Shown here: in pieces, positions 15,646 through 22,576 of the stretch
Layout: the number at the start of each line of letters is the position of its first letter
How positions within the stretch are numbered: position 1 is the stretch's first letter
Source of the DNA: Micromonospora sp. Llam0
Lineage (GTDB): Bacteria; Actinomycetota; Actinomycetes; Mycobacteriales; Micromonosporaceae
DNA: 64,000 bases
Assembly: GCF_003751085.1 (NCBI RefSeq)
Contig: NZ_RJJY01000001.1
Location: 3,224,001-3,288,000, forward strand
Direction of reading: 5' to 3'
Translations under genes and position numbers: made by a program
Notes under the pieces: model-generated
Database searches by the model: none
Seen by the model: the letters and a program-made list of their open reading frames with translations, nothing else
Told to the model about the DNA's origin: nothing

Positions 15646-16047
15646 CTACATGTGGCGGTCGTCGACCAGGTGCGGCTGCCAGCAGCCGGTGCCGCAGCTT
15701 CCGGTGTGTACGGCGAGGATCCGCAGGCCGGGCAGCACGTCGGCGAGCCGGTCGGCGGCTCGACGCAGCTGATCGTGGTGCTCGGCCTCGCTGACCGGGT
15801 TGCCGGCGCAGTCGGCGTGCCCGGCCAGCACCAGAGTGCCGCTGCCATGCGCGGTCCGGGAGACGCCCACCGCGTCCAGCAGCCGGGTCAGTTCCGCCGG
15901 GTCGGCGGTGGCCAGCACCCGGTCCGCGCCCGGCTCGGTGATCAGGTCGAGGTGGTCGACGCCGAGCCGGTCGCGGACCCACTGCCCGAGCGGCCCGTGA
16001 ATCCGGCCGTCGATGCAGGTCACCACGGTGGCGAACCGGTCCGGCAC
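15646..16047 (-). CDS. Beta-carbonic-anhydrase-like zinc protein
   Basis: 133 residues, shorter than classical beta-carbonic anhydrases (about 200). It keeps both zinc motifs: Cys11-x-Asp13-x-Arg15 (TCIDGRI) and His77-x-x-Cys80 (GHADCAGN). It may interconvert CO2 and bicarbonate, or act only as a structural or binding relative. Its GTG lies 1 nt after the stop of the SulP transporter, with the transporter's GGAGGTG end as ribosome site, so both are made from one mRNA. SulP transporters with carbonic-anhydrase partners or fusions are known elsewhere. A CysCys motif, SCGTGC, near the C-terminus is an unusual extra. Confidence 0.7.
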   Translation of the reverse strand: MPDRFATVVTCIDGRIHGPLGQWVRDRLGVDHLDLITEPGADRVLATADPAELTRLLDAVGVSRTAHGSGTLVLAGHADCAGNPVSEAEHHDQLRRAADRLADVLPGLRILAVHTGSCGTGCWQPHLVDDRHM

Positions 16048-16048
16048 T

Positions 16049-17800
16049 TCAGTACACCTCCTGCGGCAGGCGCGGCGGCGCCTCGGCGGCGGCTAACGGC
16101 CCACCCAGGGCGTCGACCGCGCCGGCCACCTCCGCGTGCAGCTGGCCGGCTTCCCGCATCGTCGGCCACAGGCCGGAACGGGTGAGCAGGTCCCGGACCG
16201 GTCCCCTGACGGTGGACAGGTGCAGCGCGACACCCCGGCTGGCCAGCCGCTCCCGGGCCTGGGCGAGGGCGTGCGCGCCGTCGGCGTCGGCGTCGCCGAT
16301 CGCGCTGGCGTCGACCACCACCGCCCGTAGCGCTTCGCGGGTCTCGGCCAGCGTCAGCAGCCGGTCGGCGAGGTACTGCGCGTTGGCGAAGTACAGCGGC
16401 CCGTCGATGCGCAGCACCACCACCTGCGGATCGGTGACCAGCCCCTGGTAGCGGGCCAGGTTGCGGAAGGTCGAGGTGCCGGGCACCCGGCCCAGTTCGG
16501 CGGTGTGCGGACGGGCGGACCGGCGCAGGAACACCGCGAGGCTGAACACCACCCCGGCGGCCAGGCCCGGCTCCACCCCGGCGACCAGGGTGACCGCGAA
16601 GGTCAGGGCCAGGGTCAGCCCGTCGACCCGGCGAAGACGCCAGGCCGTCCAGGCGCCCCGGTAGTCGACCAACCCGAGTACGGCGACCACTACGATCGCC
16701 CCGAGTACCGCCTTGGGCAGGTAGTGGAAAGCCGGGGTGAGCAGCAACGCGGTCAGCCCCACCACGCCGGCGGTGACCACCGACGCCACCGGGGTACGGG
16801 CCCCGGCGGAAAAGTTGACCGCGCTGCGGGAGAACCCGCCGGCCACCGGGAAGGCGTGGAAGGCACCGGCGGCGGCGTTCGCCGCGCCGACCGCGACGAG
16901 TTCGGCGTTCGGGTCGACGTGCTGGCGGGACCGGGCGGCCAGCGACTTGGCCACCGCGATGCCCTCCATGTAGGCGACCAGGGCGATGGCGATCGCGGCT
17001 GGCAGCAGGGCCGCTACGTCGGCCAGGGCGATCGCCGGCAGGTCCGGGGTGGGCAGCCCGCTCGGCACCTCCCGCAGGATCGGTACGCCGCGGTCGCCGA
17101 GGGCCAGCACGGCGCTGACCGTGGTGACGGCGGCGACGACCAGCAGCGCACCGGGCACCTTCGGGGCGTACCGGCGCAGCAGGACCAGCCCGGCGATGCT
17201 GGCGGCGGCGACCGCCACGGTCAGCGGGTGGATCGTGGCGGCGCCGTGCCACAGGCTGGCCAGGATGCCGGGCAGGTTCTCGGCCCGCTCGACGCGCATC
17301 CCGAGCAGGTCCTTGACCTGGCTGGCGGCGATGACGAGGGCGGCGGCCGAGGTGAACCCGGACAGCACCGAGTGGGACAGGAAGTTGACCAGCGCGCCGA
17401 GGCGCAGCACCCCCATCAGGATCTGGATGGCGCCGACCAGCAGGGCGAGCAGGCCAGCGAGGGCGGCGTACCGGCCGGGGTCGCCGTCGGCGAGCGGGGC
17501 AAGCGCGGTGGCGGTCATCAGCGCGGTGATCGCCACCGGGCCGACGGCGAGCGAACCGGAGGTGCCGAGCAGGGCGTACACCAGCACCGGCACGATCGCG
17601 GCGTACAGGCCGGTGACCGGTGGCATGCCGGCCAGGGCGGCGTACGCCATGCTCTGCGGCACCAGCATCACCGCGACGGTGAGACCGGCGATCAGGTCGT
17701 GGCGCAGCACGTGCCGGTCGTAGCCGCGCCGCCAGCCGAGGATGGGCAGGACCCGCGCCGGGCCGGTGCGCTCCTGGCGTGGGTACGCGGTGGTGGTCAT
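16049..17800 (-). CDS. SulP-family anion transporter with STAS domain
   Basis: 583 residues. The N-terminal 440 residues are hydrophobic with about 12-14 helices and the SulP signature (HDLIAGLTVAVMLVPQSMAYA near residue 35, then AGMPPVTGLYAAIVP). Residues about 455-565 form a cytosolic STAS domain (VVVLRIDGPLYFANAQYLADRL, then VVVDASAIGDADADGAHAL). The family moves sulfate, bicarbonate or related anions. Placement after a rhodanese and a persulfide-dioxygenase-like gene suggests a sulfur oxyanion; the downstream carbonic-anhydrase-like gene suggests bicarbonate. The ATG overlaps the upstream stop by 4 bp. Confidence 0.9.
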   Translation of the reverse strand: MTTTAYPRQERTGPARVLPILGWRRGYDRHVLRHDLIAGLTVAVMLVPQSMAYAALAGMPPVTGLYAAIVPVLVYALLGTSGSLAVGPVAITALMTATALAPLADGDPGRYAALAGLLALLVGAIQILMGVLRLGALVNFLSHSVLSGFTSAAALVIAASQVKDLLGMRVERAENLPGILASLWHGAATIHPLTVAVAAASIAGLVLLRRYAPKVPGALLVVAAVTTVSAVLALGDRGVPILREVPSGLPTPDLPAIALADVAALLPAAIAIALVAYMEGIAVAKSLAARSRQHVDPNAELVAVGAANAAAGAFHAFPVAGGFSRSAVNFSAGARTPVASVVTAGVVGLTALLLTPAFHYLPKAVLGAIVVVAVLGLVDYRGAWTAWRLRRVDGLTLALTFAVTLVAGVEPGLAAGVVFSLAVFLRRSARPHTAELGRVPGTSTFRNLARYQGLVTDPQVVVLRIDGPLYFANAQYLADRLLTLAETREALRAVVVDASAIGDADADGAHALAQARERLASRGVALHLSTVRGPVRDLLTRSGLWPTMREAGQLHAEVAGAVDALGGPLAAAEAPPRLPQEVY

Positions 17801-18384
17801 TTCGCCGCGCCGGCCCGGCTGATCCGGGTCAGCGAGGTGTTGACGTCACATCCGGCGCCCTGGTTGTACGGCAGGCGGGCCAGCAGCATGCCCATGGCAC
17901 AGGTGTTGGTGAGCGCCGCGACGGTCAGCCCGGCGCCGATGAGGCCGGCGACGTACCGGGCCGGCGGGTACCAGATGCTGGCCAGCACCGAGACCAGCAC
18001 GATCGCGCCGGCGACCAGCCGCACCTGACGTTCCAGGCTCCAGCGTTGCCGGCCCCGGTTGACCGGGGCGCCGGCGGAGATCCAGGCGTTCATTCCGCCG
18101 TCGAGTACGGTCGCGTCGGCCAGGCCGGCACCGGCGAGTTTCGCGCAGGCCTGGTTGGCCCGGTTGCCGGACTGGCAGATCAGCAGGATCCGCCCACCGG
18201 CGTCGGCGACGATCCGGTTGAGGTGCGCGTCGACCTGGTCCAGTGGCAGGTTGATCGCCCCGTCGATGTGGGCGGTCTCGAACTCGGCCGGGGTGCGCAC
18301 GTCGACGACCAGGGTGTCGGGGTTGTCGGCCAACAGGGCTCGGGCGGCGGGCACCTGGATGTTCGGGTTGGTGGTGGGGGGCAT
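17797..18384 (-). CDS. Membrane rhodanese (rhodanese + YgaP-like TM domain)
   Basis: 195 residues. Residues 1-110 form one rhodanese domain with active-site Cys70 in LLICQSGNRANQA. The stretch 118-185 contains two membrane helices (RLVAGAIVLVSVLASIWY and AGLIGAGLTVAALTNTCAMGML), like the C-terminal part of E. coli YgaP. It would pass sulfane sulfur between carriers at the membrane. The ATG at 18384 has CGGAGGAA 8 nt upstream. It lies 44 bp after the MBL-rhodanese gene and overlaps the SulP gene, in the middle of a four-gene operon. Confidence 0.88.
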   Translation of the reverse strand: MPPTTNPNIQVPAARALLADNPDTLVVDVRTPAEFETAHIDGAINLPLDQVDAHLNRIVADAGGRILLICQSGNRANQACAKLAGAGLADATVLDGGMNAWISAGAPVNRGRQRWSLERQVRLVAGAIVLVSVLASIWYPPARYVAGLIGAGLTVAALTNTCAMGMLLARLPYNQGAGCDVNTSLTRISRAGAAK

Positions 18385-18428
18385 GTCGTTCCTCCGGGCG
18401 GTGGTGGTCAGACGTCGTGCGGTGGTGG

Positions 18429-19757
18429 TCAGGATTTGGTGGCCAGGTCGGCGACGCCGGCACCGTTGAGTACGGCGGGCCGGTGGCCGGCGCGGACCAG
18501 CAGGCTGGCGGCGATGGCGGCCCGCCGACCGCTGCCGCAGGCGACCAGGACCGGTCGCTGCGGGTCGAGTTCGGCGGGGATGCCGTCGGTGACCAGGTCG
18601 GCGAGGAAGCGTTCGACCGCACCCGGCCAGCGCACCTGTGCCCGCTCGCTCGGCATCCGAACGTCGAGCAGTTGCGCGTCGGGCTGGGCCAGCCGCCGCC
18701 GGAAGCTGTCCAGGTCGAGCAGTTCGTAGCCGGGGCCGAGCTGGTCGGTGGTGGTCGGCCGGTGGACGCCCTGGACGGTGTCGAGGCCGATGCGGGCCAG
18801 CTGGACGACGGCCTCGGTGACGTCCTGGTCGGGGCCGGCGATCAGCACGACGGGTGCGCCGTACGGCAGCAGCCAGCCGGCCCAGCTGCCGAAGTCGTCG
18901 GTGAGTTCGATGCCGACGGAGCCGGGCAGCAGACCGGCGGCCTGGACCGGCCGGGGTCGGATGTCCAGCAGCTGGGTGTCGTCGCTGGCCGGCAGGTCGG
19001 CGGCGGTGATCTCCGGGACCTCGACGGCCGGCATCGGCTCGCCGCCACGGATGTTGGCCGGGCCCATGTACTGGTAGAAGGCCGGGATCGGCATCGGCTC
19101 GGCGAGCAGCCGGTCGGCGAACGTCTCCGGGTCGCCGATGCCGAGCAGCGGGTTGGTGTCGACCTCGTCGCCGATGGTCGAGGTGAACCGGCCGGCGCCG
19201 GTGGCGGTGCAGAACGAGCCTTCGCCGTGGGTCGGGTAGAGCTCGACGGCCCGGGGCAGACCGGCGAGGCGGTGCAGCGAGCCGTGCTGCAGCCGGGCCA
19301 GGGTGCGGGCCCGGTCGGGGCCGAGCAGGTCGGGTCGGCCGGCGGAGGCGACGAGCAGGCTGCCGCCGGAGAAGACGGCGACCGGCTCGCCGTCGATCAG
19401 CACCAGGTAGCTGGTGTGTTCCGGGGTGTGGCCGGGGGTGTGCACGGGGCGCAGGGTGAGGTTGTCGGCCTTGATGTCCTCGAGGTGGAAGGCGGGGGTG
19501 TGCCGGTAGGTGGGTGCCGCGCCAGCCGGCAGGACCAGTTCGGCGCCGGTGCGCCGGGCGAGCTGCGGCCCGCCGGAGACGTAGTCGTTGTGCAGGTGGG
19601 TCTCCAGGACGAACCGCAGGTCGACGTCGCGTTCGGCGGCGGCGTCGAGAAACCGGTCGATGTCGCGCTGCGGGTCGACGAGCACCCCCTTGCCCTCGTG
19701 GACCAGCAGGTAGGACTGGTCGCCGAGGCCGGGGGTACGGAATGAGATGAGTTCCAC
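18429..19757 (-). CDS. Persulfide-dioxygenase-like MBL-fold protein with two rhodanese domains
   Basis: 442 residues. Residues 1-240 form a metallo-beta-lactamase domain with THLHNDYVSGG (His55, His57, Asp59), PGHTPEH and THGEGSFC metal-site motifs of the persulfide dioxygenase/CstB group. Residues about 250-335 are a rhodanese fold without a catalytic cysteine. Residues 345-442 are an active rhodanese with Cys407 (VACGSGRR). The family oxidises glutathione or bacillithiol persulfides to sulfite and can form thiosulfate. The GTG at 19757 is preceded by GGAGGAG; longer versions would run into antisense of the repressor gene. The promoter contains a palindromic operator. Confidence 0.88.
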   Translation of the reverse strand: MELISFRTPGLGDQSYLLVHEGKGVLVDPQRDIDRFLDAAAERDVDLRFVLETHLHNDYVSGGPQLARRTGAELVLPAGAAPTYRHTPAFHLEDIKADNLTLRPVHTPGHTPEHTSYLVLIDGEPVAVFSGGSLLVASAGRPDLLGPDRARTLARLQHGSLHRLAGLPRAVELYPTHGEGSFCTATGAGRFTSTIGDEVDTNPLLGIGDPETFADRLLAEPMPIPAFYQYMGPANIRGGEPMPAVEVPEITAADLPASDDTQLLDIRPRPVQAAGLLPGSVGIELTDDFGSWAGWLLPYGAPVVLIAGPDQDVTEAVVQLARIGLDTVQGVHRPTTTDQLGPGYELLDLDSFRRRLAQPDAQLLDVRMPSERAQVRWPGAVERFLADLVTDGIPAELDPQRPVLVACGSGRRAAIAASLLVRAGHRPAVLNGAGVADLATKS

Positions 19758-19779
19758 GGGTGCTCCTCCGCTCTCGCGT

Positions 19780-19795
19780 ATACCCCTGGGGGTAT
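19780..19795. promoter_or_regulatory. CsoR/CstR-type operator, site A
   Basis: ATACCCCTGGGGGTAT differs from a perfect 16-bp palindrome by one base pair. It lies 22 bp upstream of the first MBL-rhodanese start. G/C tracts flanked by ATA/TAT are the known operator form of CsoR-family repressors. Confidence 0.8.
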
Positions 19796-19837
19796 CTACG
19801 AGCCCAGTATGTTCGAATGAACGTACATCTGCAAGTG

Positions 19838-19853
19838 ATACCCCCGGGTGTAT
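19838..19853. promoter_or_regulatory. CsoR/CstR-type operator, site B
   Basis: ATACCCCCGGGTGTAT is a second copy of the same palindrome with one mismatch, 67 bp upstream of the repressor's ATG and 42 bp from site A. Repression of the repressor's own gene is the natural reading. Confidence 0.78.
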
Positions 19854-19920
19854 CGTGTAAACCCAGTTGGGCAGGCCCGGAAAGCACCAGCGGGAGACCC
19901 CGGACCAGGAGGAACTCGCC

Positions 19921-20190
19921 ATGCAGGTCGAGGAGAACACCACGGCGGACGTGGTCAAGCGGCTACGCCGGGCCGAAGGGCAGATCCGCGGCATCATCGC
20001 GATGTTGGAGTCCGGCCGGGACTGCGCCGAGGTGGTCACCCAGCTCGCCGCCGTCTCCCGGGCGCTCGACCGGGCCGGCTTCAAGGTCATCGCCAGCGGG
20101 CTCGAACAGTGCGTGAGCCCCGACGCCGACGTCACCGAGCGCAAGGCCAACCTGGAGCAGATGGAGAAGCTGTTCCTCTCCCTGGCCTGA
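19921..20190 (+). CDS. cstR: CsoR/CstR-family repressor, probably persulfide-sensing
   Basis: 89 residues, all-helical CsoR fold (VVKRLRRAEGQIRGI...). Cys35 and Cys64 occupy the two conserved cysteine positions. The histidine that copper-sensing CsoR proteins carry four residues before the second cysteine is Gly60 here. Loss of that ligand with retention of both cysteines is the hallmark of CstR, which reacts with persulfides to form di- or trisulfide links and leaves DNA. The ATG at 19921 follows AGGAGG; an earlier GTG in frame would add a tail with no support. It is divergent from the sulfur operon and has operators on both sides. Confidence 0.85.
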   Translation: MQVEENTTADVVKRLRRAEGQIRGIIAMLESGRDCAEVVTQLAAVSRALDRAGFKVIASGLEQCVSPDADVTERKANLEQMEKLFLSLA

Positions 20191-20279
20191 CACCGGAGCC
20201 CGACGGATCGGCCCGACGCCGGGACGCGACGATCCGCCGGGGCCCGGTGGGTCGCCGGGCCCCGGGCAGGGTCGTGCAG

Positions 20280-20966
20280 TCAGCTCCGGTCCGGTCGGGT
20301 GGCCAGGTACCAGTCGGTCAGCTTGACCGTGTCGTCGGCCAGCCGCGCGTCCAGGTCGGCCTCGGTACGCGGCGCACCGAGCACCACGTCGTCACCGGGT
20401 CGCCAGTTCGCCGGACAGGACACCCCGTCGCGGTCCGCGGTCTGCAGCGCGTCGACCAGCCGCAGGATCTCCGGGATCATCCGGCCGGCGTTCATCGGGT
20501 AGTACAGCACCGCCCGGACGATCTGCTCGGCATCGATGACGAACACGGCCCGTACCGCCGCCGTGCCGGACGTGTTCGGGTGCAGCATCCCGTACGCGTG
20601 CGACACCGCCATGTCCAGGTCGGCGATGATCGGGAACGGGATCCGCACGCCGAGCTTGTCGTGGATCGACCGGGTCCAGGCCAGGTGGCTGAAGACCGAG
20701 TCCACCGAGTTGCCCAGCAACGCCACGTCGCGCGCGGCGAACTCGTCGGCCAGTTCGGCGAAGCCGACGAACTCGGTGGTGCAGACCGGGGTGAAGTCGG
20801 CCGGGTGGCTGAACAGCACCAGCCAGCGGCCGGCGTAGTCGGCCAGCCGGACCGGGCCGTGGGTGCTCTCCGCCGCGAAGTCGGGTGCCCGGTCGCCGAT
20901 CAGCGGCAGCCGCGCGGCCGGCGCCGACGCTGCGGCCGGTGCCGCTACGGTGGCAGTCTCGCTCAT
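20280..20966 (-). CDS. Peroxiredoxin, Prx6-like (1-Cys type)
   Basis: 228 residues. The peroxidatic cysteine is Cys62 in SHPADFTPVCTTE, the Prx6/AhpC-like signature. A second cysteine sits in SCPANWRPGDDV near residue 190 and may be resolving. The long C-terminal arm (LGAPRTEADLDAR...) matches Prx6-type arm domains. It reduces peroxides or possibly organic persulfides. The ATG at 20966 is 46 bp after the second MBL-rhodanese gene on the same strand, so it is probably in the same palindrome-controlled operon. The N-terminus carries an Ala-rich extension of about 20 residues. Confidence 0.88.
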   Translation of the reverse strand: MSETATVAAPAAASAPAARLPLIGDRAPDFAAESTHGPVRLADYAGRWLVLFSHPADFTPVCTTEFVGFAELADEFAARDVALLGNSVDSVFSHLAWTRSIHDKLGVRIPFPIIADLDMAVSHAYGMLHPNTSGTAAVRAVFVIDAEQIVRAVLYYPMNAGRMIPEILRLVDALQTADRDGVSCPANWRPGDDVVLGAPRTEADLDARLADDTVKLTDWYLATRPDRS

Positions 20967-21012
20967 GGTCGTCGATACTCCTTCACTGGTAGGTGGGGGG
21001 ATGGCCAAGGGC

Positions 21013-22428
21013 TCAGGCGGTGCCGACCGGCTGCCGCAGGGCACGCCAGGCCTGGTAACCGCCGAGCAGGTCGGAGACGTCCGGGTGGCCGTTGGCTCGC
21101 AGCAGGCTGGCAGCGACCGACGAGCGGTAACCGCCGGCGCAGTGCACCACCACCGGCCGGTCGGTCGGCACCTCGGCGATCCGCCGGGACAGTTCGGCCA
21201 GCGGGATGTGCAGCGCACCGGCGATGACCCCGGACTCGCGCTCGCCGTCGATGACCCCGGCGGCACGCTCGCCGGCGTTGCGCACGTCGAGCACCACCGG
21301 CGGCCGCTCGCCGTCGAGCGCGGCGGCCAACTGCGCCACGGTCAGCCGGCTGGCCCGGGTCAACTGGTCGATCATGTGCAGGAACGCCTGCTCCGGCTCA
21401 CGCAGGTAGCCGGCGACGGTGTCGAAGCCGATCCGGGCCAGCCGGGTGACGATCTCCTCCTCGCGGTCCTGCGGGGCGACCACCAGGATCTGCGTACCGG
21501 GGGCCAGCACGCTGCCGGCGGTCTCGGCGAACCGGCCGTCGGCGGGGACGTTCAGCGCGCCCCGTAGGTGGCCGGCGGCGTACTCCTGCGGGTCGCGGGC
21601 GTCGACCACGACGGCGCCGGCGGCCTGCCGGGCGGCGAACTCCGCCGGGCTCAGCGGCGTGGGCGCGGCGGTGACGTCGAACAGGGCGTGGTCGCGGCGG
21701 TTGAGCACCGCGTCGTAGCCGAAGTACGCCGGGGCGGCCGGCTGGCCGGCGGTGACGATCGCCAGGAACTGGTCGACGTCCATCGGGGCGCAGGCGTAGT
21801 TGGTGGCCCGCTGCTCGCCGATGGTCGACGAGCGCTCGGTGGACAGGTTCTTGCCGCAGGCCGATCCGGCACCGTGGGCCGGGAAGACCCGCACCGGGTC
21901 GGGCAGCGTCATCAGCTTGTGCTGCACGCTGTCGTAGAGCATCCGGCCGAGTTCGTCGGCGGTGACGCCGAGCGAGGCGAGCAGATCGGGCCGGCCGACG
22001 TCGCCGATGAACAGCGCGTCGCCGGTGAGTACGCCGTACGCGACCGGGTCGTCGGCGTGTTCGTAGACCAGGATGCTGATCGACTCCGGGGTGTGCCCGG
22101 GGGTCTCCATGATCTCCAGGGTCACGTCGCCGAGGCTGATCCGGTCCCCGTCGGCCAGCTTGCGGATCGGGTAGTCGGCCTCGGCCCGCCGGCCGTAGCC
22201 GATCCACGCGCCGGTGCGCGCGGCCAGTTCGAGGTGGCCGGCGATGAAGTCGGCGTGGAAGTGAGTGTTGACGACGCCTTCGATGGTGAGGCCGTGCGCC
22301 TGCGCGTCGGCCAGGTACTCGGTGACGTCGCGACGCGGGTCGACCACGACGGCGCGTTTCGTGGTCTCGTCGGCGATCAGATAGGACGCCTGGGACAGGC
22401 AGTCCAGGTAGTACTGGGCGAAGAACAT
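21013..22428 (-). CDS. Persulfide-dioxygenase-like MBL-fold protein with two rhodanese domains (second copy)
   Basis: 471 residues. The MBL domain (1-255) has THFHADFIAGH (His56, His58, Asp60), ETPGHTPES and FPAHGAGSACG. Residues about 265-350 form an inactive rhodanese (VVVDARDPQEYAAGH, no catalytic Cys). Residues 370-471 form an active rhodanese with Cys430 (VVHCAGGYRSS). The layout equals the protein at 18429-19757 but the sequences differ throughout, so this is an old paralogue and not a recent duplication. Having two persulfide oxidases in one regulon suggests different substrates or fluxes. A perfect operator palindrome lies 52 bp upstream of the ATG. Confidence 0.88.
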   Translation of the reverse strand: MFFAQYYLDCLSQASYLIADETTKRAVVVDPRRDVTEYLADAQAHGLTIEGVVNTHFHADFIAGHLELAARTGAWIGYGRRAEADYPIRKLADGDRISLGDVTLEIMETPGHTPESISILVYEHADDPVAYGVLTGDALFIGDVGRPDLLASLGVTADELGRMLYDSVQHKLMTLPDPVRVFPAHGAGSACGKNLSTERSSTIGEQRATNYACAPMDVDQFLAIVTAGQPAAPAYFGYDAVLNRRDHALFDVTAAPTPLSPAEFAARQAAGAVVVDARDPQEYAAGHLRGALNVPADGRFAETAGSVLAPGTQILVVAPQDREEEIVTRLARIGFDTVAGYLREPEQAFLHMIDQLTRASRLTVAQLAAALDGERPPVVLDVRNAGERAAGVIDGERESGVIAGALHIPLAELSRRIAEVPTDRPVVVHCAGGYRSSVAASLLRANGHPDVSDLLGGYQAWRALRQPVGTA

Positions 22429-22479
22429 GCCCGGGACCTCCTTCGGCGGTGGTTCACGGCTGCCGGATTCAGTCCCAAC

Positions 22480-22495
22480 ATACCCCCGGGGGTAT
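22480..22495. promoter_or_regulatory. CsoR/CstR-type operator, site C
   Basis: ATACCCCCGGGGGTAT is a perfect 16-bp palindrome in the promoter of the second MBL-rhodanese/peroxiredoxin operon. It matches sites A and B near 19.8 kb. Confidence 0.85.
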
Positions 22496-22576
22496 TAACA
22501 GATGGCGGCTCAAGGTCCCGAAGATTCAGGACCTTCGACCCGGTAGGGCGCACGCCCCGGCCTGCCTGGTGGGCGG

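Follow-up and report, generated by a model that had tools for sequence, protein, structure and literature searches.

What does an anion transporter of the SulP type, with a gene for a carbonic-anhydrase-like protein directly behind its own, do in a gene set otherwise of the persulfide type? The question is raised by seven genes in a 64,000-nt stretch of the genome of Micromonospora sp. Llam0 (8.9 Mb, two contigs); this whole stretch is called the window here, and all coordinates refer to it. Comparison with related genomes assigns the locus to the CstR/ScCsoR type of regulon, a kind of system already known, in a new version: SulP, often with a carbonic anhydrase (CA)-like protein of the Pro_CA_2 family, replaces the TauE transporter. 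An earlier, sequence-only reading had proposed seven proteins and three copies of one operator in this place. All seven proteins lie where it put them and belong, by Pfam, to the families it gave, and the locus is confirmed as it was described; the three operators are also present, although one is imperfect. The features are as follows.

15646..16047, minus strand: beta-carbonic-anhydrase-like protein, Pro_CA_2 (133 aa, GTG start; Pfam PF20393, 128.1 bits)
16049..17800, minus strand: SulP (SLC26/SULTR-like) anion transporter with a C-terminal STAS domain (583 aa; Pfam PF00916, 369.8 bits; STAS, 62.2 bits)
17797..18384, minus strand: rhodanese with a YgaP-like membrane domain (195 aa; Pfam PF00581 and PF11127)
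18429..19757, minus strand: MBL-fold/rhodanese protein 1, the csoR-adjacent type (Pfam Lactamase_B and rhodanese)
19780..19795: operator 1, ATACCCCTGGGGGTAT, preceding the MBL-rhodanese 1 operon (pattern search)
19838..19853: operator 2, ATACCCCCGGGTGTAT, preceding csoR (imperfect, with one mismatch in one half)
19921..20190, plus strand: CsoR-family repressor, CstR-like (89 aa; Pfam PF02583, 86.6 bits; Cys35, Gly60, Cys64)
20280..20966, minus strand: peroxiredoxin (228 aa; Pfam AhpC-TSA and 1-cysPrx_C; NCBIfam NF009668, 267.3 bits, cut-off 211)
21013..22428, minus strand: MBL-fold/rhodanese protein 2, persulfide-dioxygenase-like (Pfam Lactamase_B and rhodanese; Asp ligand kept)
22480..22495: operator 3, ATACCCCCGGGGGTAT, preceding the MBL-rhodanese 2-peroxiredoxin operon (pattern search)

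The minus strand carries MBL-rhodanese 1, the membrane rhodanese, SulP and the CA-like protein in that order; the membrane rhodanese and SulP frames overlap by 4 nt, and the CA start follows the SulP stop after a single base. MBL-rhodanese 1 begins with a GTG at 19757, a small correction to the earlier anatomy. The repressor gene diverges from this group on the plus strand, and MBL-rhodanese 2 and the peroxiredoxin form a second minus-strand pair. Judged from gene anatomy, these would be two operons and a divergent repressor gene.

The repressor was the query for collecting related loci and gave matches in 148 of 150 genomes of the family at E 0.001, copper-type paralogues included. The window's own match aside, 64 exceeded 61 bits, and sixty of these were taken as family loci (G002:C379 twice, G081:C14 and G026 were left out), and 40 class loci were hand-picked for spread, L192 among them for its CA gene. 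Neighbourhoods were counted from stop-to-stop frames; the rough gene caller misses short csoR genes. Within 7 kb, the 60 family loci have MBL-rhodanese 1 in 48 cases, the membrane rhodanese in 48, TauE in 38, SulP in 8, SQR in 6, peroxiredoxin in 5 and CA in 3. A single family locus combines SulP and TauE (L064, whose SulP is distant, at 282 bits), and all seven loci with a SulP of at least 690 bits are without TauE (naive probability 4e-4, with kinship ignored); five of these seven belong to the window's genus. The class loci have TauE in 21 cases, SulP in two (L192, and L196 with a distant SulP of 285 bits) and both in none. Across the 60 family and 40 class loci, the window's SulP type and TauE never occur in the same neighbourhood.

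At the level of genomes, an orthologue of the regulon TauE scores at least 420 bits (81-100%) in all eight TauE-type Micromonospora, one of which is the source of the query, and no more than 37.1 bits in 20 of 21 others, namely the seven from the window's genus and 14 Micromonospora that carry CA; the same search gave 21 bits in G112 and no match in G023, two further SulP-type genomes. Locus L139 reads csoR, MBL-rhodanese 1, rhodanese, SulP, CA, and its sisters have TauE at the SulP-CA position. In L192, from another family, the operon ends with SulP-CA and in two congeners (L223 and L228) it ends with TauE, the preceding order being different. On a csoR tree of 114 rows, built from only 89 columns and with 14 of its 22 SulP rows selected for carrying CA, the SulP label takes five changes, at least four of them forced by starred branches. 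SulP replaces TauE in the regulon. The sequence-only reading had it that this version adds a SulP transporter; SulP is indeed in the regulon, but it stands where TauE stands in the sisters, and an addition beside TauE is rejected on their mutual exclusion, L064 with its distant SulP excepted. Papers on persulfide regulons call TauE a putative or hypothetical sulfite exporter, and the cargo of both transporters in sulfide detoxification could be tested directly on the natural swap of TauE for SulP that separate lineages show.

The repressor itself is supported as a CstR-type persulfide regulator, as had been proposed from the sequence, by its conserved residues, the form of its operators and its conserved neighbours. 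It keeps two Cys (35 and 64), and Gly60 occupies the position, four residues before the second Cys, of the histidine of copper-sensing CsoR. Among 115 aligned homologues, selected by a match of more than 60 bits to the window repressor, both Cys are present in all, the His in none, and the combination Cys-Gly-Cys in 108. (Loci L097-L100, which are, by length, the same contigs as L130, L129, L138 and L141, are excluded from these 115 and from the 114 loci of the operator counts below, and included in the naive probability above and in a count of 120 CA homologues below.) By sequence, the closest solved chains are 7mq1 and 7mq2 (7mq1, 54 bits), and 7MQ2 is named CstR in a figure legend of PMC9774590. 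In Streptomyces coelicolor, ScCsoR is described as binding ATACCn6GGTAT and as being released from DNA by polysulfide, for which both Cys are required; it controls PDO-TauE, a rhodanese and itself, ScPDO, which is active, and TauE being co-transcribed (PMC7533328; PDO, persulfide dioxygenase). That the protein is instead a copper CsoR in a fortuitous neighbourhood is scarcely credible: the fold family is shared, and the copper-type CsoR of the genome has a weak site of similar sequence, but the complete absence of the copper His among the homologues leads us to reject this identity, no copper gene is among the seven, and the membrane-rhodanese type neighbours csoR in 48 of 60 family and 25 of 40 class loci. 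The other CsoR of the genome (L001, G000:C1:6026689-6026925) has the copper His and an operator-like site about 50 bp upstream.

Two of the three operators match the strict form ATACC-N6-GGTAT and the third does so with one mismatch; an imperfect form akin to operator 2, CCGGTGTAC, was seen again in several relatives among the matches listed. With up to three mismatches the window holds eight pattern matches against 0.72 expected, a number reached in none of 100 shuffles, and six of the eight are the three operators read on both strands. A genome-wide search allowing up to two mismatches finds the three operators and one weak site beside the other csoR and nothing else, and the reversed-pattern control finds no match. 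The operator being nearly unique in the genome and the shuffles failing to reproduce it, its occurrence is not due to chance. Relatives carry 166 strict sites in 94 of 114 csoR- or CA-centred loci (2.17 Mb); in the same loci the reversed pattern gives 0 and the best of 29 other arm permutations 17. Of 15 CA-bearing relatives with a visible MBL-rhodanese 2 orthologue, 14 have an operator upstream of it.

A whole-genome operator search of 31 genomes, that of the window included, gave extra sites away from the csoR locus among the matches listed, and 11 stretches taken from these matches were followed. The extra operator is 5' of MBL-rhodanese genes in nine of these 11: six times the gene is a separate MBL-rhodanese 1, twice it is MBL-rhodanese 2, accompanied by another rhodanese-like frame, and once the site lies between genes of the two types. 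Of the remaining two sites, one precedes a csoR-like frame and the other is found where a contig ends with csoR and a rhodanese. Relocated members that retain the operator are good evidence for one regulon. Scattering of the neighbours in related genomes had been named beforehand as a result that would speak against the regulon; the set is largely conserved, and the members relocated in the stretches followed keep their operator.

Several described systems resemble the locus in part. The S. coelicolor circuit ScCsoR-ScPDO-SctauE-Scrhod (PMC7533328) has the CsoR-like repressor with two sensing Cys, the ATACCn6GGTAT sites, a PDO with a rhodanese domain, a rhodanese gene and auto-regulation; its anion exporter is TauE, whereas the window locus has SulP and Pro_CA_2 without TauE and, in addition, a peroxiredoxin and a second MBL-rhodanese protein. 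The CstR (cst) operon of S. aureus and the YrkD cluster of B. licheniformis (PMC7315123, PMC9774590, PMC9918477) likewise have PDO, TauE and rhodanese-type proteins together with a persulfide repressor of the CsoR family; they name SQR and TauE, and neither SulP nor carbonic anhydrase was found in the available text of these three papers. In the Methylophaga mto clusters with pdo, sqrB and sulP (PMC6548844), SulP stands beside persulfide dioxygenase genes and is read as a sulfate/sulfite permease; those clusters are concerned with methanethiol oxidation, and the text available mentions no CsoR-type operator or CA. A SulP gene adjoins a carbonic anhydrase gene in the Acidithiobacillus can2-sulP pair and in SulP-CA fusions (PMC6458275, citing Felce and Saier 2004). 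In that description the SulP belongs to a clade set apart from the STAS-bearing ones, the carbonic anhydrase is a clade B beta-CA and expression depends on CO2; the window differs in its STAS-bearing SULTR-like SulP, its Pro_CA_2 and its persulfide-type operator. By its STAS domain and its Pro_CA_2 partner, the window SulP falls outside the can2-linked type (Acidithiobacillus clade C, for which the lack of STAS is taken from the same paper).

SulP scores 479 bits with TIGR00815, over the cut-off, and its best solved relative is AtSULTR4;1 (7lhv, 373 bits), against 89 bits for BicA (6ki1). Residues Q49, Y53, A90, E279, F323, S324 and R325 correspond to Q112, Y116, A153, E347, F391, S392 and R393 of AtSULTR4;1, and all seven are present in 21 of 22 intact SulP rows, the other row having F changed to L. 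AtSULTR4;1 is described as an electroneutral H+/sulfate symporter in which Glu347 is required for proton drive, and its authors inferred two protons per sulfate (PMC8298490). The SULTR-like site of SulP suggests an anion moving with protons. A BicA-type identity was rejected, the BicA NCBIfam equivalog giving 111.7 bits against a cut-off of 880. In a Micromonospora genome that carries CA (L132), the SulP sequence is distributed over two frames, which may reflect decay or a sequencing error. Two SulP genes elsewhere in the window's genome (L147 and L148, at G000:C1:6006178 and 5758020) look almost the same on inspection, and each has a similar MFS-like frame next to it; they perhaps represent a duplicated segment.

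The CA-like protein keeps the CxDGR and HxDC zinc-site motifs. C11, H77 and C80, which we take to be the zinc ligands, and D13 and R15, presumably the Asp-Arg dyad, are invariant in 47 sequences together with D79. The predicted structure (pLDDT 95.1) has the beta-CA fold, and the closest named homologue, from Solwaraspora sp. WMMB335, is at 79%. CA searches, in which only about 10-11 first-look candidates per genome were scored, found the gene in 18 of 354 family genomes, which represent two of the 44 genera, always directly behind this SulP type, and in two of 394 genomes of the class sample (the window's and G574). In all 17 CA-bearing relatives SulP and the membrane rhodanese are directly upstream of CA; csoR is in view in 16, and the last is at a contig end. 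A general tie of Pro_CA_2 to SulP was rejected, as it fails outside this group: nine distant homologues (L101-L109) are without SulP in the stretches examined, some of which are short. A C-terminal Cys pair, CGxxCW, is shared by the window protein and, without exception, its 17 SulP-linked relatives from the Micromonosporaceae, and L101-L109 all lack it; it also occurs in 45 of 120 listed homologues, mostly of unknown context, and the SulP-linked Pro_CA_2 of L192 has a shifted form, CGDRGC. The CGxxCW pair would be a lineage mark, not proof of sensing.

We propose the following mechanism, in which persulfide sensing, operon transcription, the substrate, the direction of transport and the CA activity are all inferred. 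A CstR-type repressor would hold three promoters at the GC-rich palindromes, and persulfide or polysulfide would modify Cys35 and Cys64 and release it, by analogy with ScCsoR and CstR. On induction, the rhodaneses would move sulfane sulfur, the peroxiredoxin would be made, and MBL-rhodanese 2, as a persulfide-dioxygenase-like protein, would yield sulfite and acid. SulP would take the job of TauE in the sister regulons, the removal of sulfite or sulfate. Persulfide oxidation gives sulfite and two protons, and a carrier moving two protons per sulfate, as AtSULTR4;1 appears to do, could export exactly this product, since an electroneutral 2H+:anion carrier can run outward as the product accumulates. 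The CA-like protein, translated beside SulP, would interconvert CO2 and bicarbonate and might buffer the acid or supply a counter-anion. A mechanism of this kind as a whole, with SulP and CA help removing the sulfite or sulfate and the acid of persulfide oxidation, seems to us just on the probable side.

A more specific and more tentative proposal, which we regard as possible but doubtful, is that SulP and the Cys-pair Pro_CA_2 work together as a single efflux module and that this module has repeatedly taken the place of TauE. It would export sulfite or sulfate, coupled to protons or bicarbonate, and would have a dedicated CA, whose Cys pair (CGxxCW or CGDRGC) may itself respond to sulfane sulfur. 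If true, sulfite efflux could be ascribed to a SULTR-type transporter, and persulfide would control a carbonic anhydrase; no report of either was seen among the open-licence papers listed, nor any co-mention there of CstR and SulP as whole words, and three papers mention SulP together with persulfide dioxygenase. The swap gives reason to consider whether carbonic anhydrase acts alongside persulfide oxidation.

The export mechanism proposed first has several observations against it. A transporter is not always linked to the regulon, 15 of the 60 family loci and 17 of the 40 class loci having neither TauE nor SulP. The exception to the loss of TauE noted above, the SulP-CA genome G239, has TauE-like fragments of 90 and 82 bits (contigs C666 and C499, 43-47% identity), and the window genome has two other TauE-family genes over the cut-off elsewhere. 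The few columns and the selected rows of the csoR tree count on the same side. No SQR-type orthologue was found with one query in the seven genomes of the window's genus (best 40.9 bits), which leaves the source of persulfide unexplained. Thr388 and Ser390 of AtSULTR4;1 are Ala and Gly in SulP. Known SULTRs serve as symporters in uptake or in release from stores, and efflux through SulP would have to work against a pH gradient directed inward. Regulons with SulP and no CA (L037, L042, L043 and L062) indicate that SulP does not need CA. Finally, SulP-CA pairs and fusions have been read as bicarbonate systems (PMC6458275).

This last point favours a rival in which SulP and the CA-like protein are a bicarbonate transport or pH module, induced by sulfide stress so that acid is neutralised or carboxylations are fed, with sulfite leaving elsewhere. 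The intact CA zinc site and the other TauE-family genes of the genome agree with it, but the appearance of SulP where TauE was lost, and of SulP without CA in the four loci just named, stays unexplained; SulP is also far nearer AtSULTR4;1 than BicA by the scores given above, and PMC6458275 sets the can2-linked SulPs of A. ferrooxidans, as a clade, apart from SulPs bearing the STAS domain that the window SulP has. We think such a module rather unlikely. Still less probable is a CA-like protein acting as a sulfur-gas hydrolase (COS or CS2) in a module for one-carbon sulfur compounds; for this protein, structure comparison does not separate a COS/CS2 hydrolase from a CA. It is likewise quite improbable that SulP imports sulfate or thiosulfate for assimilation, with persulfide control as a sulfur-supply circuit: the SULTR-like sulfate/proton residues would suit import, but sulfate uptake amid excess sulfane sulfur seems contrary to need, and the TauE swap would again stay unexplained.

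The two MBL-rhodanese proteins of the window, of which only the second was given a dioxygenase role in the proposed export mechanism, differ at an iron-ligand position. The ligand roles (His, His, Asp) are here assumed to be those of ETHE1. MBL-rhodanese 2 has HxHxD with the His and Asp columns kept, and in its type 31 of 33 rows keep the Asp, the other two showing a Gly and a gap; its closest solved structures are 3tp9 and 3r2u, with ETHE1 (4chl) at 63 bits. MBL-rhodanese 1 has Gly at the position of the iron-ligand Asp of persulfide dioxygenases, as do all 75 rows of its type, the window included, and because of this apparent type-wide loss of the ligand it may not be an ordinary dioxygenase. 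The csoR-adjacent type reads SGG or TGG where persulfide dioxygenases have SGD or TGD, and in these actinomycetes it may need a new functional reading.

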